Of a stretch of 64,000 nt of DNA, positions 19,993 through 57,329 are shown in pieces. Source of the stretch: an uncultured Eubacterium sp. (GTDB taxonomy: Bacteria; Bacillota; Clostridia; Oscillospirales; Acutalibacteraceae). Within the stretch, counting starts at the first letter, position 1. Every line of letters begins with the position of its first letter. A program made the position numbers and the translations under genes. The notes under the pieces were generated by a model. The model was not told the origin of the DNA. It searched no databases and was given only the letters and a program-made list of their open reading frames with translations. The DNA lies in assembly GCA_944380635.1 (NCBI GenBank), contig CALWID010000004.1:25530-89529 (forward strand). Reading direction: 5' to 3'.

Positions 19993-20142
19993 AATCACCA
20001 TAGCCTTTCAGGCTACAAAAAATTAAAATAATTAACACCTTACTGTAGCCTGATAAGGCGTTAATGGTACAGCCATCTCAAAATTATTCAGCAAGGCAAA
20101 TTTTGAGGGCAATATAATCAGAATCAGTGTGAATTTTCACGC
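19993..20142 (-). repeat. Repeated structured leader element, copy 1
   Basis: Read on the minus strand, it holds in order: a GTGAA/TTCAC hairpin (20142-20127); a CTCAAAAT...ATTTTGAG hairpin (20107-20077); a 12-bp hairpin starting ATTAACGCCTTA with TCAGGCTAC in its loop; and the hairpin TAGCCTGAAAGGCTA (20015-20001). It ends ATGGTGATT at the ribosome site of the PPC gene. The ACCAT half of the closing stem is kept, but the AATC before it is missing in this copy. The loop and the 3' GTAGCCTGA are perfectly complementary. Confidence 0.75.
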
Positions 20143-20155
20143 TAATCCTCTTTTT

Positions 20156-20620
20156 TTAATTATTAAGTTTATCAAAAAGCGCCTTACAGCCTGATTTTAT
20201 ATCTTCATACGCCGCCGAAAAATCACCCGTATACCAAGGGTCTGAAACATCTTTCCCGCTCCCGGCAAAACTCATTATTTTAAAAAGTTTGCCCTGCTTA
20301 TCGCCGCCGAACAGGCGCTGCATACCGCGCATATTTTCGCTGTCCATACCTATTATATAATCATATTTTTCATAATCATCTTTTTTCAGGCGCACCGCGC
20401 GCTTGCCGGCGCACGAAACCCCGTGCTTTGCAAGTTCGCGCCTTGCCGGCGGATAAACAGGGTTGCCCACGCCGCCCCAAATTTCCTCGCCGCTTGTTGC
20501 GGCGGAGGCAATATAAAATTTTTCCGAAACGCCTGCCTTTTGCGCCATATCTTTAAAGATAAATTCCGCCATCGGCGAACGGCAGATATTGCCGTGGCAG
20601 ACAAATAAAATTTTTATCAT
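20156..20620 (-). CDS. Low-molecular-weight protein-tyrosine phosphatase
   Basis: A 154-residue phosphatase. The catalytic loop CHGNICRS (C-x5-R-S) lies at about 8-15 and the acid loop DPWYTGDF at about 126-133, both complete. In Firmicutes such enzymes dephosphorylate protein tyrosine or arginine; the residue after the catalytic Cys-His-Gly-Asn favours the ordinary LMW-PTP class. ATG 20620 follows AAAGAGGT, nine codons inside the longest frame. It is upstream of the PPC-gene leader element and on the same strand. Confidence 0.9.
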   Translation of the reverse strand: MIKILFVCHGNICRSPMAEFIFKDMAQKAGVSEKFYIASAATSGEEIWGGVGNPVYPPARRELAKHGVSCAGKRAVRLKKDDYEKYDYIIGMDSENMRGMQRLFGGDKQGKLFKIMSFAGSGKDVSDPWYTGDFSAAYEDIKSGCKALFDKLNN

Positions 20621-20791
20621 AGATACCTCTTTAAAAGCCGAAATCAAGGCCTGCGGTGATTTTTAAGCAAATCGGCGCAGGTGGCGCAAATATTTTAAGC
20701 CTGAAAAAATATTTCAGGCGCTTTTGATTTACGCCGCTTTTTATTCAAGTATATCACGCGGCGGCTCTGGTTTCAACAAAATGAATTTAAA

Positions 20792-20827
20792 GAAAAAGCC
20801 GAAAGGGAAAAATTAAACTCTTTCGGC
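20792..20827 (-). terminator. Terminator after the DUF2798 gene
   Basis: The stem GCCGAAAG (20798-20805) pairs with CTTTCGGC (20820-20827), and TTTTTCTTT follows on the minus strand. Confidence 0.8.
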
Positions 20828-20838
20828 AGTTTTGGGTT

Positions 20839-21306
20839 TTATTTATTTTTATTTTTGAAAATGCGCTCGAAAATCATTCTTACAAACGGGCCTATAAAGA
20901 ATATCTGGCTGAAAAACGCCATTGGGAAATTCAGCACCGTTGTTTGCAGCCACACCGCCGCAAACTGCACGCCTGCTTTTTTGAAAAGCAGAGTTGCAAT
21001 AAGGCTCATTGAAGGGCACATAAGGCACACTATCATTGAGGACAGCGCTATCACAAAAAGTTTTGGATTATCCTTTTCAGGGTTCGTAAACTTAAATGCA
21101 AGTTTATGGGCAAGGCGGTCCACAACAAGAAATTCAAGCACGAAAGCAACCGGCCACATAATAACTATCTCATTAAAGGCTGAAAGAAAAACGCTGTTTT
21201 CCATTTTGCCGGTGCTTAGCGCAATGTTGTAGCATATCATAGCGTACACCATTACAAAGGACATTAAAAGTGTGAAAATGACATTCTGAAATTTTGTTTT
21301 TGGCAT
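20839..21306 (-). CDS. DUF2798-family membrane protein
   Basis: A 155-residue protein with four hydrophobic segments, in two repeats with the DUF2798 pattern (FTLLMSFVMVYAMICYNIAL early; SMIVCLMCPSMSLIATL later). The function of the family is unknown. Start ATG 21306 is preceded by AAGGAG, which lies inside a palindrome (21307-21338) able to hide it. An extended -10 (TGC-TATAAT, 21421-21416 on the minus strand) gives a leader of about 100 bases. Confidence 0.8.
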   Translation of the reverse strand: MPKTKFQNVIFTLLMSFVMVYAMICYNIALSTGKMENSVFLSAFNEIVIMWPVAFVLEFLVVDRLAHKLAFKFTNPEKDNPKLFVIALSSMIVCLMCPSMSLIATLLFKKAGVQFAAVWLQTTVLNFPMAFFSQIFFIGPFVRMIFERIFKNKNK

Positions 21307-21338
21307 AATGTTTACTCCTTTCATAAGGGATAAACATT
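21307..21338 (-). promoter_or_regulatory. Palindrome that can mask the ribosome site of the DUF2798 gene
   Basis: AATGTTTA (21307-21314) and TAAACATT (21331-21338) form an 8-bp stem. After a two-base interruption, CCTT/AAGG continues it with a TCAT/ATGA loop. The AAGGAG ribosome site is in the stem, next to the ATG at 21306. It could act as an RNA switch or as a DNA operator. Confidence 0.55.
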
Positions 21339-21583
21339 GTGTTGTTCGTATCAGTGCAAACCCAAAAGCACCCGTGCGTTTCCAATATTACCACTGTTTA
21401 CCGTTTTGCCCGCGTATTATAGCAGATAAAAAATCAAAAATCAATGCCTGAATCAAAAAAGCAAAACGCTTTACTGTAAATTGAAGGGCGCAAAACGCAA
21501 AAAATATAAACCGGCGGCAAAACGGTTAGGCGCATAAAAAGCGGTCGGTTTTTATTTTTTACTCTAACTTTAATGCAGAACGA

Positions 21584-22885
21584 TTAATTTTTATCAGTTT
21601 TTCTTTGAAACAGGATTGACAGATGAAAACGGCGCTCCTGATTATCATAATGCCATTCAACCCTGCCGTTATTAAGTTTTGCGTGCTTTTTGATTATTCG
21701 CGTTCCGAAACCGTGATTAGCGGACTCGGGCTTAGTGGAAATCAGCCTGCCGTTTTTATTCACGGGCGGAGTATCGCAACTGTTTATAACGCTTAAAATA
21801 TCCATATTATTTATATTTCTCAGAGAGAAATCAATAACTTTTTCACGGCTTTTTACTGCGCTTTCAACCGCGTTATCAAGAATATTATTTAAAATTATGG
21901 AGAGTTCGGAATCATCAATATAATCAAGATTTGCCGTTTTAGCCTCATAAGTAAACTTAATATTCTTTTTATTGCATAAAAAAATATATTTATTAAGGAT
22001 AAGATCCAGCATTTTATTATTTGAAATACGGACTGTATTTTTATTCTCAAATTCAGGGTAAATTTTATTTATATAATCCTTAACCTGAGATATATCATCA
22101 AAAGCGCTTAGGGCAAGGTAATGATTTTTTGTATCGTGAAACAGCATTTGCAATTCATCATTCTTTTGCTGCAATATATCAAGATAAGTGTTATTTAACT
22201 CATAAAAACTGCGTTCCGATTCAAGTTCTTTAACTTTTGCCTCATTCTCCTCAAGATACTGAAAATAGATTAATATAAGCACACACGCGAATATATAAGA
22301 CGCCAAAACAGCGGAAATTACAATTTTAAACGAATTAGAAATTTCATATCTGATTGAAATTATTAAAAAAACCACAGTTGTAACTAATGTTATGGCAGGA
22401 AATATAAACAGCGCAATATAACGCTTTGAGTCAATATTTTTCTTACCGCGCTTTATTATAAACGCCGTTAACTGTAACGCCGCGAAATAGATGATTTTGC
22501 TTATCAGAACAAGCTGCACAGAAGTATTTATATCATTTCTGTAAAATGTTAAGGGTACATCCATAATTGCCGAAATCAGATAGATCACAATCATTTCAGA
22601 CGCGGCCATAAAAGCGCTCATTAAAATCATTTGCACAACTGCGCTTTTTAGGCTGCACTTATAACACAAAAGCATAACAATTAAATTTATAATGCAAAAA
22701 GTTATTAGATTTAATATTTCAATATTAACGAATATAAACTGCAAAAGCCCGCAAAAATATACAACTGAACTGATAAGGAGAATATACCCGATTTTATGTT
22801 TCCTTTTAAAAATTCTGTTTAAATAGGAAAGGGCTATCATCATTTCAATTACATATGCAACGGTGCAAAGTGCAATCCGGCTCAT
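21584..22885 (-). CDS. AgrC-type sensor histidine kinase (GHKL)
   Basis: A 433-residue sensor kinase with six or seven membrane segments over the first 210 residues, a coiled linker (ENEAKVKELESERSFYELNN), and a DHp helix with the phospho-acceptor HDTKNHYLAL at about 250. A GHKL ATPase domain follows, with an N-box NNILDNAVESAVKS and the glycine-rich HGFGTRI. This layout matches AgrC/BlpH kinases that sense peptides at the membrane. It overlaps the stop of the response regulator (TAATG). No AgrB or AgrD gene is next to it, so the signal is unknown. Confidence 0.88.
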   Translation of the reverse strand: MSRIALCTVAYVIEMMIALSYLNRIFKRKHKIGYILLISSVVYFCGLLQFIFVNIEILNLITFCIINLIVMLLCYKCSLKSAVVQMILMSAFMAASEMIVIYLISAIMDVPLTFYRNDINTSVQLVLISKIIYFAALQLTAFIIKRGKKNIDSKRYIALFIFPAITLVTTVVFLIISIRYEISNSFKIVISAVLASYIFACVLILIYFQYLEENEAKVKELESERSFYELNNTYLDILQQKNDELQMLFHDTKNHYLALSAFDDISQVKDYINKIYPEFENKNTVRISNNKMLDLILNKYIFLCNKKNIKFTYEAKTANLDYIDDSELSIILNNILDNAVESAVKSREKVIDFSLRNINNMDILSVINSCDTPPVNKNGRLISTKPESANHGFGTRIIKKHAKLNNGRVEWHYDNQERRFHLSILFQRKTDKN

Positions 22886-23583
22886 TATCTGCCCTCCATA
22901 AACCTCATAAATGTTTTATAAAATTCTGTTTGTCTGTTTCTTGAAACGGCTATATGATATTTATTGTTAAGGATTATTGAATTTCTTTCATAAGAAGTTA
23001 CATAATTAAGATTTACAATAAAACTCTTGTGGGGAGACGCAAAAACCGAACTTTTCAGTTTATCACGCCAAAAACCGATAGGCGCCGCCGAATGATATTC
23101 TTTTTCCTGAGTAACCACTTTTGATTTTCTGTTTTCTATCTCTATATAAATTATATCGCAGGCGTTTACACGCTCTGTTGTTTTACCGTCTTTAAGATAA
23201 AAAGAAACGGTGGAATTATCTATTCTTTTAACCGCGTCGCTCAAGCCTCTGTAAAACCTGCCCTTATCCAGCGGTTTTTCAAAAAATCTAACAGCGCTGA
23301 GGTTTAAAGCGTCATCAAGATACTTGTTGTAGGCAGTAACATACATAAGCGCTATATGCGGATTTATCTTTCTGAGCGCCTCGCCCAGTTCAATACCGTT
23401 TTTGCCGTCCATTTCAACATCAAGAACGGCTATATCAAACTTCCCGCCGCTTTTAAGCATATCCTCAGCGCAGGTGAAAACGCTTATATCAAAATCTATA
23501 CAATTCTCTTTTGAAAAAAGTTCTATCTGCTCTTTAATTTCAAGAGCGTATGATTTTTCATCATCACATATTGCTACTTTCAC
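22885..23583 (-). CDS. LytTR response regulator (AgrA type)
   Basis: A 232-residue regulator with a receiver domain (DDEK near residue 8; phosphorylated Asp in AVLDVEMDG around 57; the YVTAY switch residues). A LytTR DNA-binding domain follows at about 130-232, with FYLKDGKTTERV and FASPHKSFIVNLNYV motifs. It pairs with the kinase encoded directly downstream. GTG at 23583 follows GGGACGG. Targets of LytTR proteins usually carry two direct repeats about 12 bases apart upstream of promoters; I did not find a convincing pair beside it. Confidence 0.88.
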   Translation of the reverse strand: MKVAICDDEKSYALEIKEQIELFSKENCIDFDISVFTCAEDMLKSGGKFDIAVLDVEMDGKNGIELGEALRKINPHIALMYVTAYNKYLDDALNLSAVRFFEKPLDKGRFYRGLSDAVKRIDNSTVSFYLKDGKTTERVNACDIIYIEIENRKSKVVTQEKEYHSAAPIGFWRDKLKSSVFASPHKSFIVNLNYVTSYERNSIILNNKYHIAVSRNRQTEFYKTFMRFMEGR

Positions 23584-23737
23584 AGTTACCGTCCCTTTTA
23601 TAACATTGTTAAAATTGTAACATAAAACAGCAGCACATTCAACAAAAGCAGCCGTTTGAGAACAAATTATTCTAAAAGCAAAACAGCGAATTTACACGCC
23701 GTTCTGATTTACACTACAGGAAAACACGCCGCGAAAA

Positions 23738-25306
23738 TTAACGCTTTAATAAAAATTTAATGCCTATAACACCGTGTTCGGAAACTATCTTTTTTTCGCT
23801 TAAAAATTTCCCCGCTGAGAGTTTAACACAATAATTTTTGCCCTTATAGCAAAGCGCAAGTTCATTATCGCTGACGCTGAAAACCGCGGGCAGATACTCG
23901 CTTACCCTGCCAATTCTGTTTTCCATTATAAAATCCTTATTGCGTGAAACAGTAATCCCGTTTTCATTTAAACTGAAAATAACGGCGCCGCCGGCGGAAT
24001 CGGCAAAACTTACTTTGCACCTGCCTTTGCCGCAGTCCTCAAACTCCATTTTATCGTATAAAAGTTCGCTGCCGGTATCTTTATCAGCAAAATAAATTCC
24101 GGATATTATATGATTACCGCTGAAAAGGAATCCGTCCGCAACGGGCAGAGTTTCATAGACGGCATAATTTTCCCTGCATATGTTATTTTCAAACGGGTCT
24201 TCAATACTATCGTCAAAAATATGCAAATCCCTTATGCGAAAACGCCCGCCTGCTCCGTAAAGATTAACACGGTAATTTTTTGAGCAGTACCACGCCGAGT
24301 CCTTATTAGGGTCATCAAAAGCACTGTGCGCCGTTATGGCTGACGCGGGCGTTGAAGCAAAAGTATTTTTAAACCATTTTCCGCTTTCGCCGAGGGTTTC
24401 TATCTCTATTTTATTTTCTTTTTCAAGCCTTGCAAATTCTTTAAACTGATAGTTGAGGCCGTCTTTCATTGCGCTCCAGCCGAAACTGTTTTCCTGCCCT
24501 GCCTGAGCGTAGCAGAAAGACAGGCATTCGCCGTTATAATTTTCTTTCAAATACCAGTCTACCCACTGCGGCAGACCGCCTCCCGCCTTTTTATAAACGG
24601 GTTCAAGAGTAATAACGCTCTGCGACGCCCGAGCGGAGCCGTCCTCATTCATACCGCAGTCATACTGATAAACCTGATCTGAGCCGAGCATGCGAAAAAG
24701 CGGAACATTGAGTTGCTCTTCTTTGCTTTGAGCAGGTATAAAAACATTGGTTTTACTTGGATAATACGCCTGCCCGTAATAGCCGCCCCAAAGGGTATAA
24801 CCGTCCGTACCGTACTGCTCTTTACAGTTGCAAAGAGCATCCAGCCCGTATTTTTCGGTGATATATCTTACAGTAAACGAATCAAAAAACCACGAGCCGA
24901 ACACGCGCGGATAAAAGCCCATAACATCACGAAATTTTTCAAAAAGCCTGTTTACCATAGCGGCGCGCTCTTCCCTGCTGTACCCCATAGGAAAGCCATA
25001 CTGAACGCGGCCGTCCCACTCCCTTTCGCCGCGCCATTTAATGCCGCAGTCCTCAGCAAGAGGTTTATGTATTTCAAACCACACGCCTGTTTCATAGCGG
25101 CTTGAATCGAGCGACGGCATAAGTTTTTGGTATTCGGGGAAAGTAAGCGCGTCATACTGAATAAGAAAAGTTGCCTTAAAATTATATTTATCAATAAGTT
25201 TTATCTGCTCCAGCACGGTGCGGTAAGTTTCACCTTTGGGCTGGGGCTCAGAATCATAACCGCGGATAAAGTTAACGATATTCAAAATACGGCGTTTTTT
25301 ATTCAT
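23738..25306 (-). CDS. Polysaccharide-deacetylase-fold protein, function unknown
   Basis: A 522-residue cytoplasmic protein with no signal peptide. The first 250 residues resemble the NodB/glycoside-hydrolase deacetylase barrel: a TFLIQYDALT strand, then EIHKPLAED and GWFFDSFTV-like segments. Clear zinc-binding histidine motifs are not obvious. The C-terminal part is beta-rich and may bind carbohydrate. The ATG at 25306 follows a repeated leader element whose GGTGATT lies 3 bases before it. The neighbouring AraC regulator and mgl sugar importer suggest a carbohydrate role, which is inference. I cannot name the family with certainty. Confidence 0.55.
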   Translation of the reverse strand: MNKKRRILNIVNFIRGYDSEPQPKGETYRTVLEQIKLIDKYNFKATFLIQYDALTFPEYQKLMPSLDSSRYETGVWFEIHKPLAEDCGIKWRGEREWDGRVQYGFPMGYSREERAAMVNRLFEKFRDVMGFYPRVFGSWFFDSFTVRYITEKYGLDALCNCKEQYGTDGYTLWGGYYGQAYYPSKTNVFIPAQSKEEQLNVPLFRMLGSDQVYQYDCGMNEDGSARASQSVITLEPVYKKAGGGLPQWVDWYLKENYNGECLSFCYAQAGQENSFGWSAMKDGLNYQFKEFARLEKENKIEIETLGESGKWFKNTFASTPASAITAHSAFDDPNKDSAWYCSKNYRVNLYGAGGRFRIRDLHIFDDSIEDPFENNICRENYAVYETLPVADGFLFSGNHIISGIYFADKDTGSELLYDKMEFEDCGKGRCKVSFADSAGGAVIFSLNENGITVSRNKDFIMENRIGRVSEYLPAVFSVSDNELALCYKGKNYCVKLSAGKFLSEKKIVSEHGVIGIKFLLKR

Positions 25307-25308
25307 TA

Positions 25309-25464
25309 AATCACCATAGCCTTTCAGGCTGCAAAAATAAATTTAAAAACATTAACACCTTGCCGCAGCCCGACAGGCGTTAACGATGATTACAACCGCC
25401 CCAAAAGTATGCCGCAGGAAAATTTCAGGGAAATATATTTTTAACAGCGTAAATTTTTGCGCTG
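25309..25464 (-). repeat. Repeated structured leader element, copy 2
   Basis: This is the most diverged copy, yet its stems persist. CAGCG/CGCTG (25445-25464) replaces the GTGTG hairpin of other copies. TTAACGCCT pairs with AGGTGTTAA. The loop GGGCTGC pairs with GCAGCC further on, where other copies have GCTAC with GTAGC. The 5' half AATCATCGT still pairs with ATGGTGATT (25317-25309) through G-U pairs. It ends 3 bases before ATG 25306. Confidence 0.7.
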
Positions 25465-25746
25465 ATAATCAAAATTAATCTTCATTTAAATAAAAGCGGA
25501 ATAAAAACCAAAATATAAAATTTTTATAACAAATACATAATTCCAAATAAATACAAAATAAATTATGATATAATATACAAGGTTTAAAGCCTAAGGAAAA
25601 GGCGGAGCGGAACGCTTTTTATTTCTGCTCCTGACTTTTATAATATAATATTTGCCGCCGGCAGGCAACAAAAAAGCCGCATAAAAATACAAAAAGCCAA
25701 ATCACAGCAAAGATTGCCGCTTTAAATAATTTTCAGGGTGATAAAA
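25465..25746 (+). promoter_or_regulatory. Promoter and leader of the AraC regulator
   Basis: An extended -10 (TGATATAAT, 25566-25574) is seen for the plus strand, giving a leader of about 165 bases. A GGAGC/GCTCC hairpin can form around 25605-25635. A second TATAAT-like stretch lies near 25640. No known riboswitch was recognised. Confidence 0.45.
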
Positions 25747-26583
25747 ATGTATCAGTGCACTTGGTTTTACACTTCTCAACTAATGCTTTTAAAAAAGGAA
25801 AACGCTGTTGCCGCCGCTTGGCGCGTTGAGGCTGATGAATTTTACATATATGAAATTAAGCAGGACAAACTTGCCCTTAATGATACATACTGCTTTCTGC
25901 GCACCGTAAACGGCGGAGGATATATCAAAACCGTAAACGGCGATAAAATTTCTCTGCCTGAAAATTCGTATATTATTATAGAAACAAACAGGATAAAAGA
26001 ATTATGCAGTTCTGATGAAAAATGGATTTATTACAGGGTGGATTTTCTGCACAAGGATAAACTTAACATAAAAACGGGAAAGCCTTATCCCGCTGTTTTC
26101 AGTGAACACGAAAAAGAACTTTTTGAAGAACTGCTTGATGTGGGCAGGCAGTTTCCCGGTGAGGTTGAATATATAAATTCCGTATTCAGCCACTATTATT
26201 TTAATCTTACCCTGCAGCCTTTTAAAAAGACTGATGATGCGGCGCACAGCGTTAAACTTTCCGAAGTGTGCGCATACATTCAGCAAAAACTTTACTCGCG
26301 TATTACAGTTACCGAAATAGCGAATTTCTTTAATGTGTCATCACGCAGAATTCATCAAATATTTAACGAAACGCTTCATATGCCGCCTAAGCAGTATATA
26401 TCAGATTTAAAAATTGAAAAAGCAAAGCAAATTCTTGAAAAAACATCAATGCCCATAATTGATATAGCCGAATCACTCGGATATTACAGCGCTTATCATT
26501 TTTCATCTGCATTTCAGCGGAAAACAGGCTGCTCGCCAAGCGCTTACAGAAGAAAACTGCTTAAAAAAACTTCAAAAAAATAA
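25747..26583 (+). CDS. AraC-family transcriptional regulator
   Basis: A 278-residue regulator with an N-terminal cupin-like sensing domain (about 1-165) and a C-terminal AraC domain. Two helix-turn-helix units are visible: ITVTEIANFFNVSSRRIHQI, then IDIAESLGYYSAYHFSSAFQ with the family-typical GCSPSAYRRK after it. Start ATG 25747 follows AGGGTGAT; the GTG three codons earlier is part of that site. It lies between the deacetylase-fold gene (divergent) and the mgl operon, so it probably controls one or both. Confidence 0.88.
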   Translation: MYQCTWFYTSQLMLLKKENAVAAAWRVEADEFYIYEIKQDKLALNDTYCFLRTVNGGGYIKTVNGDKISLPENSYIIIETNRIKELCSSDEKWIYYRVDFLHKDKLNIKTGKPYPAVFSEHEKELFEELLDVGRQFPGEVEYINSVFSHYYFNLTLQPFKKTDDAAHSVKLSEVCAYIQQKLYSRITVTEIANFFNVSSRRIHQIFNETLHMPPKQYISDLKIEKAKQILEKTSMPIIDIAESLGYYSAYHFSSAFQRKTGCSPSAYRRKLLKKTSKK

Positions 26584-26608
26584 TATTGATATTTATAAAA
26601 CGCTCAGA

Positions 26609-26638
26609 AACGCTCCGAAAGAAACGGAGCGTTTTTTT
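26609..26638 (+). terminator. Terminator after the AraC regulator
   Basis: The 9-bp stem AACGCTCCG (26609-26617) pairs with CGGAGCGTT (26625-26633), followed by TTTTT. Confidence 0.9.
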
Positions 26639-26773
26639 GTTGCTTTTAAGCAGGCAAAAAGCGGTTAAAGCCGTAAATTTTAATCGGTGCAAAAATTGAT
26701 TGTTTCATTGAAAAAATATTGGCAATATTAAATATGAAAGGCAAAAGAAAAAAGCCTGAAAAAACACACACAC

Positions 26774-26944
26774 GAGTGATTAATGTAAAAAATTCACACT
26801 AAGCAGATTATATTGCCTCAAAATTTACCTATGGCATAATTTTGAAACGGCTGTAATCACCATTGACGCCTTATCCGGCTACAGTAAGGCGTTCATAATT
26901 TTTAATTTACTGACTGTTTGTAGCCTGAAAGGCTATGGTGATTA
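26774..26944 (+). repeat. Repeated structured leader element, copy 3
   Basis: AATCACCAT (26855-26863) is the exact complement of ATGGTGATT (26935-26943). Between them lie a hairpin (ACGCCTTA with TAAGGCGT) whose loop reads CCGGCTAC, and the hairpin TAGCCTGAAAGGCTA (26921-26935). Upstream are the CTCAAAATT...AATTTTGA arm and an imperfect GTG/CAC hairpin. The GGTGAT ends 6 bases before ATG 26949 of the sugar-binding gene. The loop-to-3' pairing has one mismatch here. Confidence 0.75.
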
Positions 26945-26948
26945 ATAT

Positions 26949-28013
26949 ATGAAAAAAATATTCGCGCTGATTACATCTTTATTATTTGCGGTATTCTGCC
27001 TTACCGCCTGTTCGGCGGACAGTGCCGGCGGAGAAATTTCCGTACTCTATTATACTTTCAGCGACACTTATATCTCAAGCGTGCGCGCTGCGCTTGACCA
27101 AACCCTGAATGACGCGGGGCTTAATTACAACGATTATGACGCAAACAGCAGCCAAACCACGCAGACGGAACAGGTGCATACGGCTATTGCCAAAGGCGCC
27201 TCCATGCTGATAGTAAATGTTGTTGACACCGGCTCTGACGACGCCGCTCAGAATATAGTTAACCTTGCAAAAGCGCAGAATATACCTGTAATATTCTTTA
27301 ACCGCTCAGTTGACGAAAGCGTTGTTACAAGTTATGACAAATGCGTTTTTATAGGCACGGATTATGAAATGGCGGGCCATATGCAGGGCGAGATGATAGG
27401 AAATTACCTGCTAAAAAATTACGACGCTTACGATTTAAACGGCGACGGTAAAATAAGTTATGTTATGTTTAAAGGGCAGGAGGGCAACTTAGAGGCGATA
27501 GCAAGAACTCAATACGTCGTTGAGGACTGCAACAGGATTTTACAAAGCGCAGGCAAGCCGGAAATTGAATTTTACGATTCCGCCAACACAAACAAATACC
27601 TTGTTGACCAGGACGGAAACTGGTCCTCGGCGGCGGCAACGAATTATATGAGCACTATTCTTGCCCGCCACAGCACTTCGAGCAACAATATGGTTGAACT
27701 TGTGATTGCAAACAACGATGAAATGGCGCTGGGGGCAGTATCCGCCTTACAGAGCGCAGGCTATAACAAGGGCAGCGGCAGCGTTACGATACCCGTATTC
27801 GGAGTTGACGCCACAGACGCCGCGAAAGCAAAAATTGCGGACGGCTCTATGGCGGGTACAATTAAGCAGGACGGCGAAGGCATGGCGCAGACTATAAAGA
27901 CCGTTATTGATAATTTTAATTCCTCCGCTTTGCCGCTTACAAATATTGACGAAGATAATATTGTTGGCAGTTGGAGGGTAAATGTGCCATACTCCGAATA
28001 CACGGGAGAATAA
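26949..28013 (+). CDS. mglB: Galactose/glucose-type ABC transporter binding lipoprotein
   Basis: A 354-residue periplasmic-binding-protein family member. A lipoprotein signal peptide ends at a lipobox (LTAC, Cys21), which places it on the outer face of the membrane. The mature part follows the MglB pattern, including a calcium-site-like DLNGDGKISYVM loop, ANNDEMALGAVSAL and FGVDATDAAKAKIADG. It binds galactose, glucose or methyl-galactosides in known members. It is first gene of mglB-mglA-mglC, and its ribosome site is the 3' end of the repeated leader element. Confidence 0.9.
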   Translation: MKKIFALITSLLFAVFCLTACSADSAGGEISVLYYTFSDTYISSVRAALDQTLNDAGLNYNDYDANSSQTTQTEQVHTAIAKGASMLIVNVVDTGSDDAAQNIVNLAKAQNIPVIFFNRSVDESVVTSYDKCVFIGTDYEMAGHMQGEMIGNYLLKNYDAYDLNGDGKISYVMFKGQEGNLEAIARTQYVVEDCNRILQSAGKPEIEFYDSANTNKYLVDQDGNWSSAAATNYMSTILARHSTSSNNMVELVIANNDEMALGAVSALQSAGYNKGSGSVTIPVFGVDATDAAKAKIADGSMAGTIKQDGEGMAQTIKTVIDNFNSSALPLTNIDEDNIVGSWRVNVPYSEYTGE

Positions 28014-28025
28014 AACAAAAAGACT

Positions 28026-28047
28026 GGCTGAAAGGCTGCGATGATTA
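28026..28047 (+). repeat. Degenerate tail of the repeated element before mglA
   Basis: GGCTGAAAGGCTGCGATGATTA matches the last bases of the element (CTGAAAGGCT...GATTA) directly in front of ATG 28048, but the upstream hairpins are absent. Confidence 0.4.
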
Positions 28048-29553: not shown

Positions 29554-29567
29554 GGAGATAACTATTT

Positions 29568-30632: not shown

Positions 30633-30640
30633 ACGGTAAA

Positions 30641-30787
30641 TTGAAAAACGGGAATAATAAATATAAAAACAAAAGCGGCGGTCTTTACGCTGGCGTAAAT
30701 ATATCCAAAAAATCGGCGGATATTCTTGCGGCGCTGAGCGCCGGCGCGCTTGCGCTGTGCCTTTTTGCAGTAATCTTTTGTTGCTGA
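30641..30787 (+). CDS. Small single-span membrane protein after mglC, 48 aa
   Basis: A short ORF starts with TTG 9 bases after the mglC stop; AGGAG lies 13 bases before it, at the 3' end of mglC. The product has a lysine/asparagine-rich, positively charged N-terminus, a LYAGVNISKKSADILAAL segment and a hydrophobic C-terminal helix ending in CC. It precedes the operon terminator, so it would be the last mgl gene. Its role is unknown; a small subunit or regulator of the transporter is possible. The long spacing and TTG start lower certainty. Confidence 0.5.
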   Translation: MKNGNNKYKNKSGGLYAGVNISKKSADILAALSAGALALCLFAVIFCC

Positions 30788-30801
30788 AAACAAAATATAA
30801 A

Positions 30802-30838
30802 AAATGAGCGGCGCCGAAAAGCAACCGCTCATTTTATT
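30802..30838. terminator. Bidirectional terminator after the mgl operon
   Basis: The 10-bp stem AAATGAGCGG (30802-30811) pairs with CCGCTCATTT (30825-30834), with T-rich flanks on both strands. Confidence 0.85.
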
Positions 30839-47570: not shown

Positions 47571-47582
47571 TTTAACCTCCGG

Positions 47583-49022: not shown

Positions 49023-49732
49023 TATTCCAACCCCGTTCTCTTCATCATCTCCGCATAAGCATCCTCTACACCGCCGAGGTCGCGGCGGAAACGGTCCTTA
49101 TCCAGTTTCTCGTGGGTTTTAATATCCCAGAAGCGGCATGTATCCGGGCTGATTTCATCTGCAAGAACGATAGTTCCGTCTGAAGTTTTGCCGAATTCAA
49201 GTTTGAAATCTATAAGTTCTACGCCGATTGAGGCAAAGTACTCTTTAAGAACATCATTAATTTTGAAAGCCATTTCCTTAATTGTATCTATCTCTTCCCT
49301 TGTTGAAAAACCGCATGAAATAGCGTGATACTCGGAAATAAGCGGATCGTCAAGTTCATCGCATTTATAAGAAAACTCAATAGACGGGGCAACAAAATCC
49401 ATGCCCTCCTCAAGTCCGAGCCTTTTGCAGATTGAACCTGCCGCGCGGTTGCGGATTATAACCTCAAGCGGAATAATGCTTACTTTTTTAACGGCTGTTT
49501 CCCTATCTGAAAGTTCCTCAACAAAATGAGTGGGAATACCGTGCTTTTCAAGAATCTGCATAAGGTAATTGCTCATTTTGTTGTTTACAACGCCTTTGCC
49601 TACGATAGTGCCTTTCTTTTTGCCGTTAAAAGCGGTAGCGTCATCCTTATAATCCACGATAACAATATCGGGATTATCGGTTGCCCACACCTTTTTTGCT
49701 TTGCCCTCATAGAGCTGCTCTGTCTTAGTCAT
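49022..49732 (-). CDS. purC: SAICAR synthetase
   Basis: A 236-residue enzyme, standard length for bacterial PurC. It starts with the family motif [10 protein letters not shown] and has [19 protein letters not shown] and [10 protein letters not shown]...[15 protein letters not shown]. It joins aspartate to the imidazole intermediate of purine synthesis. It is followed by purB, so two consecutive enzymes are co-translated. Confidence 0.96.
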
Positions 49733-49765
49733 TTAGTATATCCTCCAAACTTCTAAATTATTAAC

Positions 49766-50950
49766 TTATTTGCCGTATACGCGCTTGATTCTTTCAATAG
49801 CCTCAAGCGTTTTTTCATAATTGCCGAATCCCGTTAAACGAAGATAACCTTCGCCGCACTTGCCGAATCCGGAACCGGGAGTGCCTACAACCTGGCACTT
49901 ATCAAGAAGATCGTCAAAAAACTCCCAAGAGGTCATTCCTTCAGGAACCGTAAGCCATACATAAGGCGAATTAACAGCGCCGTAGCAGGTAAAGCCTGCC
50001 TCTGTTAAACCGTCAAATATAGCCTTGGCGTTTCTCCGGTAATAAGCAATGGTTTCTTTTGTCTGCTTTTGACCCTCATCACTGTATACCGCCTCAGCCG
50101 CGCGCTGAGTTATATAACTTACGCCGTTGAATTTTGTTGCCTGACGGCGTGCCCAAAGCGGATTCAGGCTTACACCGCCGAACTTAAGTGCCTTTGGCAC
50201 AACGGTGTAACCGCAGCGCACACCGGTAAAGCCGGCGGTTTTTGAAAACGAACGGAATTCGATAGCGCAGGTTTTAGCGCCGTCTACTTCATATATTGAT
50301 TTTACGGAACCATCCGTTACAAAAGCCTCATAAGCGGAATCATAAAGGATAAGAGAGCCGTGCTCATTTGCGTAATCAACCCAAACCTTAAGCTGCTCCT
50401 TGCTTGCGGCAACGCCTATGGGATTATTTGGGAAACAAAGATAAATAACATCGGGAACTTCATCCGGAAGTTGCGGCATAAATCCGTTATCCGCAGTGCA
50501 GGGAAGATAAATAATATCCGTTCTGCCGCTCATTACATTTGAATCAAGATAAACAGGATAAACAGGGTCGCAGATTGCAACTTTATTATCAGTGCTGAAA
50601 ATATCGCCTATATTTCCGCAGTCTGATTTTGCTCCGTCTGAAACAAAAATTTCATTCTTTTCAATATCAATGCCTCTGTCTGCGTAATCGTGTTTCTGAA
50701 TGGCGTCAATAAGAAAATCATAGCCGTGCTCCGGCGGATAGCCGCGGAAAGTATCCTCGTTTGCCATTTCGTCCACCGCCTTATGCATAGCCTCAATAAC
50801 AGCGGGGGCGAGCGGCTTGGTTACATCGCCGATAGAAAGGCGGATAACTTCCTTATCCGGGTGTGCCTGCTGATACTCCCTCTGCTTTCTTGCTACTGTT
50901 GAAAACAGATAGGAGCCCTCTAATTTTAAAAAGTTTTCATTTACTTTCAT
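49766..50950 (-). CDS. dapL: LL-diaminopimelate aminotransferase
   Basis: A 394-residue PLP-dependent fold-type I aminotransferase. It makes LL-diaminopimelate directly from tetrahydrodipicolinate, the shortcut pathway used by clostridia, Chlamydia and plants. Seen are [13 protein letters not shown] at about 40, [15 protein letters not shown] and the PLP-lysine motif [16 protein letters not shown]. The start overlaps the dapF stop by 4 bases. It works with DapF, which is encoded just before it. Confidence 0.95.
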
Positions 50951-51810
50951 ATATTAAACCTCCTGATCTTCTGAAGATCTATTTCACCTGTAAACACATA
51001 TTCGGCAGGGCCCGTCATATAAACCGGGTCGCTTTCAGAGCCGCTCCAGTTTATTTTAAGGTCTCCGCCCGTAAGATGCACCGTAACTTCATTATCCGCA
51101 TAGCCGCAAAGCATAGCAGCAACGGCAACTGCGCACGCACCCGTGCCGCAGGCAAGGGTTTCACCCGTGCCGCGCTCCCAAACGCGCATCTCAATTTCAT
51201 TTTTATTTATAACCCGCGCAAACTCGGCGTTCACACGGTTTGGAAACATTTTATCATTTTCAAAAAGCGGGCCGAATTTTTCAAGATTGAATTCCCTTGG
51301 GCTTTCGCCGATAAACATAACCGCGTGCGGATTGCCCATAGAAACACAGGTCATATTAAAATCCCTGCCGCCGATATTTACCGGCTGATTTACAACTCTT
51401 TGCAAATTAAAATTAACCGGCACATCGGCCGCATTAAGTATCGGCTCGCCCATATTGACCTTTGCGCCCTCAACCTCGTTTCCGTTTAAAAACAACTCTA
51501 TAATCTTGACTTTGCCCATTGATTCAACAGTAAACCTTGCCGAATCAACATAACCGCTGTCATACACATATCTTGCAACGCAGCGTATTGCGTTGCCGCA
51601 CATTTCTCCGCGGGAGCCGTCCGGATTATACATAACCATTTCAAAATCGGCAGCCGTGCCTTTTTTTATTAAGATAAGGCCGTCCGCACCGACTCCGAAG
51701 TGGCGGTTTGAAAGCAGAACAGCCGCCTCTTTTTCATTTTCAACTTTTTCCTTAAGGCAGTCGATATAAACATAATCGTTGCCGCAGCCCTGCATTTTTA
51801 TAAATTTCAT
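50947..51810 (-). CDS. dapF: Diaminopimelate epimerase
   Basis: A 287-residue epimerase that converts LL- to meso-diaminopimelate for lysine and peptidoglycan. The two catalytic cysteines are in [13 protein letters not shown] (about 80) and [14 protein letters not shown] (about 226). The N-terminal [13 protein letters not shown] is typical. It is first in the unit dapF-dapL-purC-purB-decarboxylase subunits. Confidence 0.96.
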
Positions 51811-51855
51811 ACAATATCACAAGCCCTTTTCTATATTATTTACGGCTGAGCCGGT

Positions 51856-52371
51856 TTATGTAAGCCTGTCTAAAATATCCATGGCGACGACGGCTATTTT
51901 TTTGCCGCTTTTCATACTTTCCTGCTGCAAAAACTTATGCGCCTGGGTTTCGCTCATACCTTTAAGGCTGATAAGCGCCTCTTTAGCCTTGGAAATATAT
52001 TCATCTTCCGCGCCTGTTCTTCTTGTAAAACTTGATTTGCTGCACGCAAGCATTTGAACGGTATTTAAAAAGTCATTTCTGTCCATAGGCACGGGCAAGG
52101 TTATCAAATTGCCCATATACTGCTCGGAGCCGTTTTTTGAGAGGGCGATTATATCAAACCCTTGCGGAACCTGCTCGGCAAGTTCGGCGGCGGTTATATC
52201 CCTCATAACAAACGGGCAGACGATAACGCCGCTTTGCTTTTCCTGGGCTATCTCAAGCGCGGAAGAGCCAAGCGCGCAGACATGGGTTACGCGAAAACCT
52301 GATTTTTCAATCATAGACCTGATTGACAGGGCTGTTTCTTTTTTAGGATAAACAACGATTATATCCTTCAA
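51856..52371 (-). CDS. ANTAR-domain regulator with degenerate receiver domain
   Basis: A 171-residue protein. The first 115 residues form a receiver-like fold starting IIVVYPKKETALSIRSMIEK, but the usual acidic pair and phospho-acceptor aspartate are missing or weak. The C-terminal 55 residues form an ANTAR helix bundle (ISKAKEALISLKGMSETQAH...LQQESMKSGKKIA). ANTAR proteins bind RNA hairpins to prevent transcription termination. The start TTG 52371 follows GGGGGGAG; the longer frame upstream begins before this site. It is an orphan, divergent from the glycogen operon. Confidence 0.8.
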   Translation of the reverse strand: MKDIIVVYPKKETALSIRSMIEKSGFRVTHVCALGSSALEIAQEKQSGVIVCPFVMRDITAAELAEQVPQGFDIIALSKNGSEQYMGNLITLPVPMDRNDFLNTVQMLACSKSSFTRRTGAEDEYISKAKEALISLKGMSETQAHKFLQQESMKSGKKIAVVAMDILDRLT

Positions 52372-52773
52372 ATTTTCTCCCCCCAGGTGCTGCCTGCCCT
52401 GCGCTTTTGCGTTAGCGTTAAAACACCGGTAACAATTATACCATATAAAACCATATGCAATCAATAGAAAAATAAATATAAAATTTTTATAATAATAAAG
52501 TGCAAAATTATTTATTTTGATGAAAAATGAAAAAGAGGATTCAGCCGTGTTTTCGTCCTTTTGATTTACTTTTACCAAAAATATCGAAAATTTTGTAACA
52601 AATTGCACAATATTTTACTTTATTCAAAAAATTCTTGTAACAAAGTAAACAAAAAACACTTGATTGTTTTTCGGTGTGATGATACAATGTAATTGAGTAT
52701 AAAATTATAAGAGCGGTGCTGCATCTTAAAAACGCGCCGCTTTAACCGAATATTTCTCTTAAGGAGAGCATAT
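52372..52773. promoter_or_regulatory. Divergent control region between ANTAR gene and glgB
   Basis: Contains the palindromic repeat TTGTAACAA at 52593-52601 and 52635-52643, 42 bases apart. The glgB promoter is TTGATT (52660-52665), extended -10 TGA-TACAAT (52680-52688). A leader hairpin (AGCGGTGC with GCGCCGCT) lies near 52711-52742. The rest is AT-rich and without a gene. Confidence 0.6.
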
Positions 52774-54654
52774 ATGAAAAAATTAAAAAAGGAATATGAA
52801 TTTCCCATATACATTTTTAACAAAGGCGAAAATTACAGGGCATATGAGTTTTTCGGCTGTCATAGAATTAAAGGAAATGAATTTGCGTTCAGAGTTTGGG
52901 CGCCGCACGCCGCTTGCGTTTGTGTTTCCGGCGATTTCAACAACTGGAATGAAACCGCAAACAAAATGGAACTCATTTCTCCCGGAATATGGGAAGCCGT
53001 TATAGATAATGTTAATATTTATGACTGCTATAAATATGTTATAACTTCAAAGGACGGGCGTTTGCTTTATAAAGCGGACCCTTACGGATTTCACTGTGAA
53101 ACAAGGCCGGGCACGGCTTCTAAAATTTACGAACTCGGCAATTATAAATGGAAAGATTCCGATTGGCAAAAAGAAAATCTTAAGGGCAGCATACTTGAAA
53201 AGCCCGTAAACATTTACGAGATACATTTCGGCTCCTGGAAAAAGAAAGAAAACGGCGATTATTACTCATACCGTGAAATGGCGGACGAACTTCTGCCCTA
53301 TGTAACTGATATGGGATACACACATATAGAAATGATGCCGCTTATGGAATACCCGTTTGACGGCTCCTGGGGCTATCAGGTTACCGGCTATTTTGCGCCC
53401 ACTTCACGCTACGGAACGCCGGACGACCTTATGTATTTTGTGGACAGATGCCATCAGGCGGGAATAGGCGTTATACTTGACTGGGTGCCCGCCCATTTTC
53501 CTAAAGACGCTCACGGCCTTTATGAATTTGACGGCGAACCTCTTTACGAATATTCCGATATGCGCAAGGGCGAACACAAGGAATGGGGCACAAGAGTTTT
53601 TGATTACGGCAAAAACGAAGTTAAAAGTTTTCTTATATCATCTGCAATGTACTGGGCGGATATGTATCATTTTGACGGATTGCGCGTTGACGCCGTTGCC
53701 TCTATGCTTTACCTTGATTACGGCAGGCAGGACGGCGAATGGGTTGCCAACAAATACGGCTCAAACGAAAACCTGGAGGCTGTTGAGTTTTTCAAGGAAC
53801 TGAACAGCGCAATGTTTAAAGAACACCCCGCCGTAATGATGATAGCGGAAGAATCCACCGCGTGGCCCATGATAACCATGCCGCCTGATGTGGGCGGGCT
53901 TGGTTTCAATTTTAAATGGAACATGGGCTGGATGAACGATATGCTGCGCTACACTTCGCTTGACCCGCTTTTCAGAAAAGGCAACCACAACTGCATTACT
54001 TTTAGTTTCTTTTACGCTTTTTCGGAAAATTTCATTTTGCCTATAAGCCATGATGAAGTTGTGCACGGCAAATGCAGCCTTATCAACAAAATGCCCGGCG
54101 ATTACGATATGAAATTTGAGGGTATGCGCCTGTTTTTATCATACATGGCGGCGCACCCGGGCAAAAAACTGCTGTTTATGGGGCAGGAATTCGGCCAGTT
54201 TAAGGAATGGGCATATGAAGACGGGCTTGACTGGATGCTGCTTGATTATGAAAAACACAGAAAACTGCTTAAATTTTCAAAAGAACTTAACCATTTTTAT
54301 AAAGAACGCCCCGAATTATGGGAAATTGATTACAGTTGGGAAGGTTTCAGTTGGATTTCAAGCGATGACAACGCCAACTCAACAATAGCGTTTAGAAGAA
54401 TCAGCAAATCCGGCAGTGAAATTATAGGGATATTTAATTTCACCCCAAACGAGCACAAGGAATACCGCATAGGCGTGCCCGAGCCGGGAACATACAAAGT
54501 TATATTTGATTCCAACCTTAAAAAATACGGAGGAAACAAAGCAAGACTTTCAGGCACTTATAAAACCGCGAAAAAGCCGATGCACGGATTTGACCAGAGC
54601 ATAGGGGTTAAACTCGGCGGGCTGAACGCGTTATTTATTGAAAAGTCCAAATAA
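52774..54654 (+). CDS. glgB: 1,4-alpha-glucan branching enzyme
   Basis: A 626-residue GH13 enzyme that makes alpha-1,6 branches in glycogen. An N-terminal CBM48-like domain ([20 protein letters not shown], about 33-120) precedes the catalytic barrel, with [11 protein letters not shown], the nucleophile region [13 protein letters not shown], a general acid in MIAEEST and [14 protein letters not shown]-terminal beta domain follows. Length is normal. ATG follows TAAGGAGAG. It is first gene of glgB-C-D-A, behind an extended -10 promoter. Confidence 0.95.
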
Positions 54655-54668
54655 GGAGGAATGTGTTA

Positions 54669-55877
54669 ATGGCACATAAATCAAACATTGTTGCAATGCT
54701 GCTTGCCGGCGGGCAGGGCAGCAGACTTGGAGTTCTTACCAAGAACATAGCAAAGCCCGCTGTTCCCTACGGCGGAAATTACAGAATAATAGATTTTCCG
54801 CTGTCTAACTGCGTAAACAGCGGCATATACACGGTTGGGGTGCTTACACAGTATCAGCCGCTTGAACTTAACGATTATATCGGCAACGGTCAGCCGTGGG
54901 ATCTTGACAGGCAGAACGGCGGTGTGCATGTGCTTTCCCCTTATGAGGCAATAGGCAGCAAGGAATGGTATAAAGGCACGGCAAACGCCATTTATCAAAA
55001 CATAAACTTTATTGAAAAATACGACCCCGAATATGTTGTTGTACTCTCCGGCGACCATATTTATAAAATGAATTACGCAAAGATGGTTGATTTCCACGAA
55101 AAAAACAAAGCGGACTGCACAATAGCAGTGCTTGAAGTGCCGTGGGAAGAAGCATCCCGCTTTGGCATTCTTGCAACTGATGAAAACAACAAAATTTATG
55201 AGTTTGCGGAGAAACCCACCCAGCCGAAATCCAACAAAGCCTCCATGGGCGTATATGTTTTCAGTTGGGACAAGTTGAAAAAATATCTTATTCAGGACGA
55301 AAACACACCCGGCTCGGCAAATGATTTCGGCAAAAATATTATTCCTACCATGCTTGACGCGGGTGAGAGAATGTTTGCGTTTGAGTTTGAGGGATACTGG
55401 AAAGATGTTGGCACCATAGATTCCCTTTGGGAAGCAAATCTTGATATAATCAACCCGAATGTAGACCTTGATTTAAGCGACCCGAGTTGGAAAATATACA
55501 GCCGCAATCCCGTCAGCCCGCCGCACTATATCGGTAAAAACGCAAAAGTGGAACTTTCATCTGTTTCCGAAGGGTGCGAGATAGAGGGAAATGTTGATTA
55601 CAGCGTTATCTCCAGCAATGTTAAGATAGAAGAGGACGCCGACATAAGATACAGCGTAATAATGCCGGGCGCGGTAATAAAGAAGGGCGCAAAGGTATAT
55701 TACTCAATAGTTGCCGAAAACGCCGTTATTGAAGAGGGCGCCCAGGTTGGCGAGATTCCGGAACTGCTGCAAAACCCGGAGGACTGGGGAGTTGCGGTAA
55801 TAGGCTCCTCGGCAACTGTTAAAAGCAATTCAAAAGTTGAGCCGGGCGCAATGATAGAATCCGGCAAGGAGGTGTGA
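54669..55877 (+). CDS. glgC: Glucose-1-phosphate adenylyltransferase, catalytic subunit
   Basis: A 402-residue enzyme that makes ADP-glucose. The nucleotidyltransferase motif [20 protein letters not shown] is at about 11, then [22 protein letters not shown] (metal site) and [12 protein letters not shown] (glucose-1-phosphate lysine). A left-handed beta helix closes the protein (about 290-400). ATG 54669 follows AAGGAGG; an in-frame GTG two codons before is too near the site. It probably pairs with GlgD. Confidence 0.95.
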
Positions 55878-55879
55878 GC

Positions 55880-57004
55880 ATGAACGGTAAAAAAGTGTTG
55901 GGAATGATATTTGCTAATATTCACGAGGGCACATTAGACAGCCTTACCGCAATGAGAACGATGGGCTCCGTTCCGTTTTGCTCAAGATACAGGCTTATTG
56001 ATTTTCCGCTTTCTAACATGGTGGAAAGCGGGGTTACAAAGGTGGGCGTTATCACAAACGCAAATTTCCAATCCCTGATGGACCATGTGGGCACTGGCAA
56101 ACCGTGGGACCTGAGCAGAAAGAATGACGGACTTTTCATTCTGCCGCCGTTCAATGTTGGCAGCGCAACGATGTGGGGAAACAGGATTGACGCAATTTAC
56201 GGCAATATGGGATTCCTTGAGCAGAGCAACCAAACATATGTTGTTATGTGCGACTGCAATCATATGCTTTCGCTTGACTATGAAGCGCTGTTTGACAAGC
56301 ATGAGGAAAGCGGCGCGGACATAACCGTGGTAGGCGTAAAAGCGCCTATGCCGGATAAAATCGGCTCCATTTTGTGCTTTGACAAAGTTGAGGAGGACGG
56401 GCGCATTACTGAAATGAGCCTGGACAGACATGATGAGGCGGAAATTTTCCACAGTGTAAACATAGTTATAATGAAAAAATATCTGCTTGAATCCCTTATA
56501 ACAACTGCTCATTCAAAAAATGAAATATCTTTCCAAAGAAATGTTCTTATGGCAAACTCCAAGAGCCTTAAGATTTACGCGTACGACGCAACTGATTCAT
56601 TCGTGGGCACTATATCAAGCGTTCAGGCTTACTACGATGTTTCCATGAAACTGCTTGAGAAAGAAAACAGGGATAAACTTTTCAGCAAGGATTTTCCGAT
56701 TTACACAAAGGAAAGGGACGATATGCCCGCGCTTTACGGCGCAGAATCGCACCTGACAAATTCCCTTGTGGCGGACGGTTGTATTATTGACGGTACCGTT
56801 GAAAATTCTATTATATTCAAAGGCGCAAAAATAGCGAAAGGCGCGGTAGTTAAAAATTCAATTCTTATGCAGGATACCGTAGTGGGTGAAAATTCAACGC
56901 TGAGTTATGTTATAGCAGATAAAAATGTAAACATTAAAAACGGCGTGGAACTTTCCGGCGCCCCAACCTTCCCCGTTACCCTGAGCAAAGGCACAAGGGT
57001 TTAA
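55880..57004 (+). CDS. glgD: GlgD, regulatory paralogue of ADP-glucose pyrophosphorylase
   Basis: A 374-residue GlgC relative without full catalytic residues: the GGQGSRLG loop of GlgC reads IFANIHEGTLDSLTAMR, and the metal-site GDH reads VVMCDCNHM. In Firmicutes GlgC and GlgD form a mixed tetramer where GlgD raises activity. ATG 55880 follows AAGGAGG, 2 bases after the glgC stop. Two copies of the repeated leader element separate it from glgA. Confidence 0.93.
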   Translation: MNGKKVLGMIFANIHEGTLDSLTAMRTMGSVPFCSRYRLIDFPLSNMVESGVTKVGVITNANFQSLMDHVGTGKPWDLSRKNDGLFILPPFNVGSATMWGNRIDAIYGNMGFLEQSNQTYVVMCDCNHMLSLDYEALFDKHEESGADITVVGVKAPMPDKIGSILCFDKVEEDGRITEMSLDRHDEAEIFHSVNIVIMKKYLLESLITTAHSKNEISFQRNVLMANSKSLKIYAYDATDSFVGTISSVQAYYDVSMKLLEKENRDKLFSKDFPIYTKERDDMPALYGAESHLTNSLVADGCIIDGTVENSIIFKGAKIAKGAVVKNSILMQDTVVGENSTLSYVIADKNVNIKNGVELSGAPTFPVTLSKGTRV

Positions 57005-57018
57005 AATCCGGAAAAATT

Positions 57019-57176
57019 GTGTGAAACGCACTGATAATATCAAAATTATGCGCCCTCAAAATGTGCCTAACGGCATAATTTTGAGACGGCTGAATCACCA
57101 TTGACGCCTTATCAGGCTACAATAAGGTATCAATGATTTAAAAATATTATTTTGCAGCCTGAAAGGCTATGGTAAT
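57019..57176 (+). repeat. Repeated structured leader element, copy 4 (tandem, upstream)
   Basis: It has the GTGTG/CGCAC hairpin (57019-57031), CTCAAAAT...ATTTTGAG (57055-57085), AATCACCAT (57093-57101), the TTGACGCCTTAT hairpin and the CAGCCTGAAAGGCTA hairpin. The end reads ATGGTAAT (57169-57176) instead of ATGGTGAT, and no gene follows: copy 5 begins immediately. The ribosome-site function seems lost here. Confidence 0.75.
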
Positions 57177-57329
57177 AGTGTGAAACACACTATCAGATTA
57201 TATGCCCTCACAATTTGCCTAACGGCATAATTTTGAGATGGCTGAATCACCATTGACGCCTTATCAGGCTGCAATAAGGTATCAATGATTTAAAAAATAT
57301 TATTTTGTAGCCTGAAAGGCTATGGTGAT
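57177..57329 (+). repeat. Repeated structured leader element, copy 5 (tandem, next to glgA)
   Basis: AGTGTG-AAA-CACACT (57177-57191) opens the element. AATCACCAT (57245-57253) is complementary to ATGGTGATT (57322-57330). GGTGAT ends 3 bases before glgA ATG 57333. The body is nearly identical to copy 4, showing a recent tandem duplication. Confidence 0.78.

Follow-up and report, generated by a model that had tools for sequence, protein, structure and literature searches.

What are the structured sequences that stand directly before the start codons of several genes in this stretch of DNA, and how did they come to be there? The stretch, hereafter called the window, is the whole 64-kb segment of contig CALWID010000004.1 of an uncultured Eubacterium sp. 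that was analysed. It contains five copies of an element of about 150-165 nucleotides (nt), which a preliminary description took for a translational switch, perhaps tied to carbohydrate supply, with a mobile repeat that brings a ribosome site as the alternative. Our analysis supports the alternative. The element is mobile and it is placed, in sense orientation, in the spacer between the Shine-Dalgarno sequence (SD) of a gene and its start codon. We put at roughly 0.8 the probability that it is a non-autonomous structured mobile element, which inserts in SD-to-start spacers and brings a new SD in this lineage, and that it is not a metabolite switch.

All five copies of the preliminary description are present in the window and have the same order of hairpins. 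A 21-mer, AGCCTGAAAGGCTATGGTGAT, is found exactly in four of them and with one mismatch in the fifth; it occurs in none of 100 shuffles of the window. Counted from the motif GGTGAT, the start codon follows after 3-6 nt in four copies, as had been described, and the fifth (57019-57176) abuts the next copy. The upstream complement AATCACC, which had been reported as a common feature, is exact in three of the five copies, but all that remains of it in copy 1 is ACCATT, and copy 2 has AATCATC. The features of the element in the window are the following.

19991-20141, minus strand: copy 1, full length; model match of 160.3 bits (G000:C4:45520-45670), with the start codon 4 nt on, at 19989.
25307-25461, minus strand: copy 2; 140.7 bits, 3 nt before the open reading frame (ORF) 23738-25306.
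26784-26945, plus strand: copy 3; 157.1 bits, preceding the MglB-like gene 26949-28013.
57018-57179, plus strand: copy 4, the first of a tandem pair; 135 bits, abutting copy 5.
57177-57332, plus strand: copy 5, the second of the tandem pair; 147.2 bits, 3 nt before glgA (57333-58754).
57309-57329, plus strand: conserved 3' end of copy 5, made of AGCCTGAAAGGCT and the terminal arm ATGGTGAT, with the proposed replacement SD, GGTGAT.
57245-57253, plus strand: AATCACCAT, the inner arm of copy 5 and the complement of its terminal arm, as judged from sequence, folding and the matched arms across subtypes.
28026-28046, plus strand: sixth copy, a degraded remnant of the 3' end only, GGCTGAAAGGCTGCGATGATT, recognised by eye and missed by the 21-mer pattern search.

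A single base separates the remnant from the start codon (28048) of the gene downstream of mglB. The glgA gene 57333-58754 has an NCBIfam match of 646 bits, above the cut-off of 603, and gene 26949-28013 matches the NCBIfam model of MglB with 186 bits, under the curated cut-off of 420. The labels PPC and deacetylase-fold, for the genes after copies 1 and 2, are those of the preliminary description, and HIT, used below, is a label given by eye; all of them are putative. When folded, four of the five copies beat all 200 of their shuffles, copy 2 being the exception (10 of 200 shuffles fold at least as well), and the SD end is paired in the minimum free energy (MFE) folds. The segment ACGCCTTATCAGGCT, in the inner half of the element (e.g. 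window 57254-57272), looks much like the enterobacterial repetitive extragenic palindromic (REP) sequence, a likeness that may be due to chance.

Is this placement particular to the window? The genome to which it belongs (G000 in our labelling) has 2,002,436 bases in 47 contigs and is 98.65% complete. A covariance model built from 26 of its own copies found 55 copies in it (E<=0.01), and three tandem arrays are present. The 21-mer, with up to three mismatches, has 44 matches in this genome and none when the pattern is read backwards. Nine of these 44 lie outside the 55 model copies, so that, with the remnant at 28026 left aside, the total is 64 places. Directly downstream of 50 of the 55 copies, in sense, is the start codon of an ORF of at least 60 amino acids (aa); GGTGAT and this codon are 3-4 nt apart in 38 of them, the others having spacings from -2 to 9. 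The five copies without such a start codon comprise three that are followed by another copy, the weak match L115, and L031 (G000:C9:56300-59500). At about 1613-1625 of L031, the frame aligned with the gene of the sister species G042 would begin at ATT. An ATT or ACG at the expected start is found in L294, L296 and L031, and can be read as unusual starts, decaying genes or sequence errors.

The placement is not random. Of the 63 model matches obtained at E<=0.05, 55 are followed, 1-6 nt past the end of the element, by the start of an ORF with 60 or more codons, compared with 4.4% of random positions in the same loci and with 0 of 63 at the opposite end on the opposite strand. When the range is relaxed to -3 to +24 nt, this becomes 57 of 63 matches, 17.6% of random positions and 7 of 63 at the opposite end. 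The same start-codon placement is seen in 103 of 110 rows from other genomes, these rows including at least one pair (L050/L283) that looks like one record under two names. A leader peptide inside the element was ruled out, as no frame is open throughout in more than 2 of the 20 copies of at least 140 nt.

Comparison with relatives shows that the element has moved. The flanks of 60 sites of our genome were compared with 19 stretches of the sister species G042, in which the proteins encoded by ychF and metG are 95% and 96% identical to ours. Nine sites, with both flanks aligned nearby, could be counted; L039, with one flank, and L040, with flanks 1.2 kb apart, were excluded. Eight of the nine sites are empty in G042: SD, spacer and ATG are contiguous there, and here the element lies in between. 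At the ninth, L013, the G042 junction is not alignable and has no element. At metG, for example, the empty site has the SD-spacer-ATG sequence AAGGAGATAAGAAAATG, and at the HIT-like gene it has AGAGGTGTTAAAAATG. In our genome, six of the seven full-length sites (the HIT-like gene, ychF, metG, murG, L102 and L031) have a native SD that can still be recognised on the left of the element; it is less clear at coaD. At argB, the native SD of G042 is gone and what stands before the start codon is the last ~20 nt of the element, to which several other copies are also reduced. Judged by eye, the element end is missing before the start of 19 of 19 orthologs of ychF, 14 of 14 of metG and 13 of 14 of the HIT-like gene. 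The exception among the latter, in G021, has a partly matching 3' remnant of another subtype. In G049, a candidate copy at the beginning of the HIT-like gene was ruled out, since its coordinates place it after that gene.

The number of copies varies widely among relatives. It is 55 in our genome, 25 in G015, 23 in G021, 8 in G049 and 6 in G009, and three copies were found in G042 (E<=0.001). Between 1 and 25 copies are present in 17 of 24 other genomes of the genus (E<=0.01) and in 13 of 15 more (E<=0.001), and none of 15 genomes from other families of the order has any. A family-wide search with stricter filters, which recovers 19 of our 55 copies, gave matches in eight genomes of other genera. 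L300 (G088:C64:9592-9749), the only copy found in its other-genus genome, is near-consensus, with 171 bits, and has the same sequence and score as L280 from Clostridium sp. CAG:217, a possible recent transfer. The exact 21-mer was retrieved in 20 stretches of named genomes, recorded as Eubacterium, Eubacteriaceae, Ruminococcaceae, Clostridiales, Clostridia and Clostridium sp. CAG; carriage by phages was set aside, two exact patterns having had no match in viral contigs. Three target pairs among the relatives are insertions common to close genomes, with proteins that are 95-98% identical. When the downstream proteins of relatives were compared with the 59 of our genome, one of 101 was an ortholog (DusB, 65%), and one further pair was a partial match of 36%. 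Mobility is thus shown by filled and empty sites, by genes that are mostly different in each species, and by the many copies here against three in the sister. As expected of miniature inverted-repeat transposable elements (MITEs), dispersed copies have filled and empty orthologous sites and the element has no coding capacity of its own.

The genes that follow the element are unrelated, and include dnaN, metG, tyrS, murG, coaD and glgA. NCBIfam matches above the cut-off were also obtained for purF, 2-isopropylmalate synthase, alr, pncB, dusB, nfo, cysK, recR, argB and ychF, and MglB, lysA and shikimate kinase are among those under it. This family scan covered 30 of the 59 downstream proteins of our genome, 4 of the 30 being without any family at the E-values used. 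Some of the interrupted genes are essential. A covarying structure adjoining an SD, as in a regulatory leader, is present, but the association with one pathway across species that is typical of such leaders was not found, given the unrelated genes and the one shared target in 101. The diversity of the genes, the empty sites and the scarcity of common targets led us to reject a sugar-linked riboswitch, and the switch tied to carbohydrate supply is not supported; the decay of the partner arm, described below, also speaks against it.

How would genes interrupted in this way be translated? The terminal arm ATGGTGATT is well supported as the new SD in the subtype present here. Pairing of the GGTGAT end with the 16S tail is predicted at -7.8 kcal/mol. 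For 32 ordinary ORFs of the window, predicted SD pairing has a median of -7.8 and a mean of -6.6 kcal/mol, and random 15-mers give -1.7; the tail used is the common bacterial sequence and may differ from that of this genome. An SD match of at least 5 nt is found in the 20 nt to the left of the element in 56 of 84 cases, compared with 76 of 502 control windows. In the 20 copies of our genome that were found only by the model, and are taken as older copies, the terminal arm is off consensus at 16.9% of 154 positions and the inner arm at 32% of 172 (Fisher p 0.002), with some selection bias, the terminal arm being part of the model. That the terminal arm is better kept than its partner indicates that the 3' end is used as SD in this lineage and that pairing with the inner arm is not maintained after insertion.

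The element can be described as a series of hairpins, P1, P2 and P3, and a helix that links the P3 loop to the 3' side. Among the 26 copies of our genome, 17 pairs of these helices are changed on both sides; the mean of shuffles is 9.7, and at most 9 are obtained when the helices are slid. RNAalifold, run on 25 copies from many genomes, gives P1, P2 and a long 3' hairpin, in which 13 of 35 pairs are changed on both sides. Alternative helices that share bases exist. The inner and terminal arms occur as matched sets, namely AATCACCAT/ATGGTGATT, AATTCCCAT/ATGGGAATT, AATTCACAT/ATGTGAATT, AATTTCCAT/ATGGAAATT and AATTTGCAT/ATGCAAATT, the last of which was observed once. In 106 copies of other genomes, a copy's own arms form on average 8.21 of 9 Watson-Crick pairs, compared with a mean of 7.06 and a maximum of 7.34 in 300 trials with swapped arms. 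Pairing of the inner arm with the SD-bearing end, as had been proposed, is thus borne out, and it is the matched arms across subtypes that support this helix. The inverted repeat of the 3' end is the inner arm and not the 5' end. At the left junction, P1 reaches into the copy-specific flank, with 1.74 of 4 pairs against 1.23 (88 copies), and 2000 swaps gave at most 1.52. The preliminary description expected a plain repeat to be placed at random and to lack covariation. Both non-random placement and covariation are found, but the element is mobile anyway, so this assumption fails.

In relatives there is also a longer form, which has an extra module of ~105 nt between P1 and P2 (L138, L136, L139, L124 and L279). 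In our genome, what appears by eye to be a remnant of this form is the first member of the tandem array on G000:C29 (L015, ~1408-1524). A search of the window against Rfam gave no match at gathering score. When three loci were searched permissively, six matches were obtained, none of them reaching its gathering score; one, to the S4-Clostridia leader (22.8 bits, with 37.5 as the gathering score), coincides in part with the 3' end of the L046 copy.

Based on these results, a model of the life of the element can be proposed. The element inserts in sense between the SD of a gene and its start codon, leaving the native SD ~160 nt upstream. The terminal arm would take over as SD, so that genes would remain translatable despite the distant native SD, and later deletions could strip the rest and leave the 3' end alone. 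The paired arms would probably function in the movement of the element itself, in the form of single-stranded DNA or RNA; pairing of the left end with the purine-rich SD and spacer may help in the choice of the target, and the enzyme would be supplied from elsewhere. In this model the right guide would correspond to the inner arm, and the left flank of the target would base-pair with the sequence that follows P1. Much of the placement could be accounted for by the purging of insertions within genes and a preference for purine-rich, SD-like targets, with no need for translation starts to be read directly. We offer more tentatively, as somewhat likelier to be wrong than right, the view that this is a new class of element, in which guide-arm pairing aims the insertion at the SD and spacer and the right end, a replacement ribosome-binding site, renders it harmless, with at least five matched guide/terminus subtypes.

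Several observations weigh against this model. No mobilising enzyme was found in searches for Y1, TnpB and RVT_1, DDE transposases and other recombinases not having been searched for. The Y1 transposase (PF01797) has no match in our genome, and TnpB above the cut-off is absent from the five high-copy genomes searched, ours included. RVT_1 has one match in our genome, which is partial, covering positions 61-166 of 205 with 32.8 bits (cut-off 29.6). This match sits in an open frame of 994 aa (G000:C20:46746-47132). The pairing with the left flank is itself partial, being nil in several high-scoring copies, and could come from selection after insertion; strict copying of the target flank into the element is unsupported for the first of these reasons. 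A target-site duplication could not be defined by eye. Within the 26 copies of our genome alone, the helix between inner and terminal arms is not clearly above shuffles. Moreover, four ortholog pairs of relatives (62-77% identity; L054/L133, L139/L055, L143/L158 and L130/L301) are preceded by different subtypes of the element, which suggests independent insertions before the same gene, and some genes may be hit repeatedly. Finally, in subtypes B (GGGAAT) and C (GTGAAT) of relatives, the 3' end is a weak SD, at -4.2 kcal/mol, and the native SD on the left is strong, with means of -7.6 and -7.9 kcal/mol, so that SD replacement may hold for subtype A (GGTGAT) only.

Could the element belong to a known type of single-stranded DNA transposon? 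An IS200/605- or REP-like element, with guides that pair with the cleavage site and the target, and whose Y1 transposase has since been lost here, is a narrower form of the explanation that we prefer, so their odds overlap; taken by itself it is rather unlikely. Both ends have hairpins close by, the right end resembles the left flank, tandem copies joining there, and pairing occurs between the left end and the flank of the target. The inner arm, at the 5' foot of P3, pairs with the right terminus, comparable to G_R/C_R of IS608 (PMC5934647). Y1 matches are found in 21 of the 42 genomes of the genus, with two each in the carriers G052 and G023; those at G042:C21:138326-138681 and G042:C37:232434-232789 are split over two frames or have an internal stop. 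Nevertheless, G015, G021, G009 and G049 are, like G000, without Y1_Tnp in spite of their copies, and the 30 Y1 loci examined (of 46 matches listed) do not have the ends of the element, the best being 16-mers with 3-4 mismatches. In addition, a target of 4-5 nt alone does not explain the strict placement at start codons. In a search of seven genomes with the 5' half, bearing on an autonomous partner with the same ends, the hits examined were the short form, the ~105-nt-longer form and hits at contig ends; G052:C51 is at least one further hit.

Another possibility is that the element supplies no SD and acts as a folded bridge, a compact structure that brings the upstream native SD near the start codon. 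Genes of phage T4 in which a hairpin lies between SD and start codon are a precedent. The retention of the native SD a few bases before the first hairpin, the 3' stem that ends at a near-constant 3-4 nt before the start codon, and the weak 3' and strong left SD of subtypes B and C are all as this would have it. We consider it improbable, because truncated copies such as that of argB retain the 3' end and drop the 5' part, because the terminal arm of subtype A is better kept than its partner, and because in some copies the left SD is itself within the P1 stem.

A little less probable than the bridge is an RNA that, through reverse transcription or reverse splicing, becomes inserted in mRNAs close to the SD. 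It would explain the strict sense orientation and the position in the mRNA, and the left end pairs with the target flank as an exon-binding site does. Group II introns have the consensus of a GTGTG start and an AT end, and the element begins with GTGTG and ends with AT. The partial RVT_1 match of our genome would also agree with it. These points are countered by Rfam, which gives no intron match, and by the lack of RVT_1 in four of the five high-copy genomes that were searched (G015, G021, G052 and G023). Within the explanation that we prefer, sense-only placement in leaders fits an RNA-borne route as well, and the data do not separate it from an IS608-like one. Last, a translational riboswitch or regulatory RNA, in which the inner arm hides the SD until a signal arrives and copies are kept for regulation, agrees with the matched inner arm and SD end across subtypes, the paired SD end in the MFE folds, the base-sharing alternative helices and the sub-threshold S4-Clostridia match at L046, but is very unlikely in view of fifty unrelated genes in one genome, a sister with three copies, empty sites and one common target in 101, a partner arm more changed than the SD arm in older copies, several copies that are down to the last ~20 nt, and the lack of an Rfam match at gathering score.

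Insertion of a mobile element close to a start codon is usually harmful to the gene. This element sits before essential genes too, seemingly giving each gene a new ribosome site in this lineage. If this is correct, a natural replacement of the SD on the scale of a genome, at about 50 genes in one lineage, would follow. The element is also a source of structured leaders that are easily mistaken for riboswitches and, should the proposed pairing be true, an example in nature of an element that recognises its target through base pairing. Our searches of a collection of open-licence papers of PubMed Central, which excludes most subscription journals and preprints, turned up no such element. In our view, its novelty consists in the near-exclusive use of the SD-to-start spacer and in the self-supplied SD.

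The element has features in common with several known systems. With translational riboswitches it shares a structured 5' leader that can take the SD into a helix, but it differs from them in being mobile, in having no conserved target genes and in a partner arm that older copies do not retain. IStrons, HEARO and group II introns are mobile structured RNAs or DNAs, some of which recognise their target by base pairing; the element here differs from them in having no protein-coding frame and no Rfam match at gathering score. In IS608, guide sequences at the feet of hairpins pair with the cleavage sites and the target (PMC5934647). Hairpins near the ends, a guide-like arm next to a hairpin that pairs with the terminus, and a possible choice of target by base pairing would be common to the element and to the IS200/605 and REP systems (IS608, TnpA-REP). 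In contrast to these, there is no Y1 transposase in our genome, the 30 Y1 loci (of 46 matches listed) have no matching ends, the guide arm is ~9 nt long instead of 4, and the target is the SD region. MITEs and the pneumococcal BOX, RUP and SPRITE elements are likewise short, structured and dispersed, without a gene of their own and with expansion in particular lineages, and the longer form with its extra middle module recalls the modular BOX elements. The element described here differs from these small repeats in being found in the spacer between SD and start codon, in sense orientation only.

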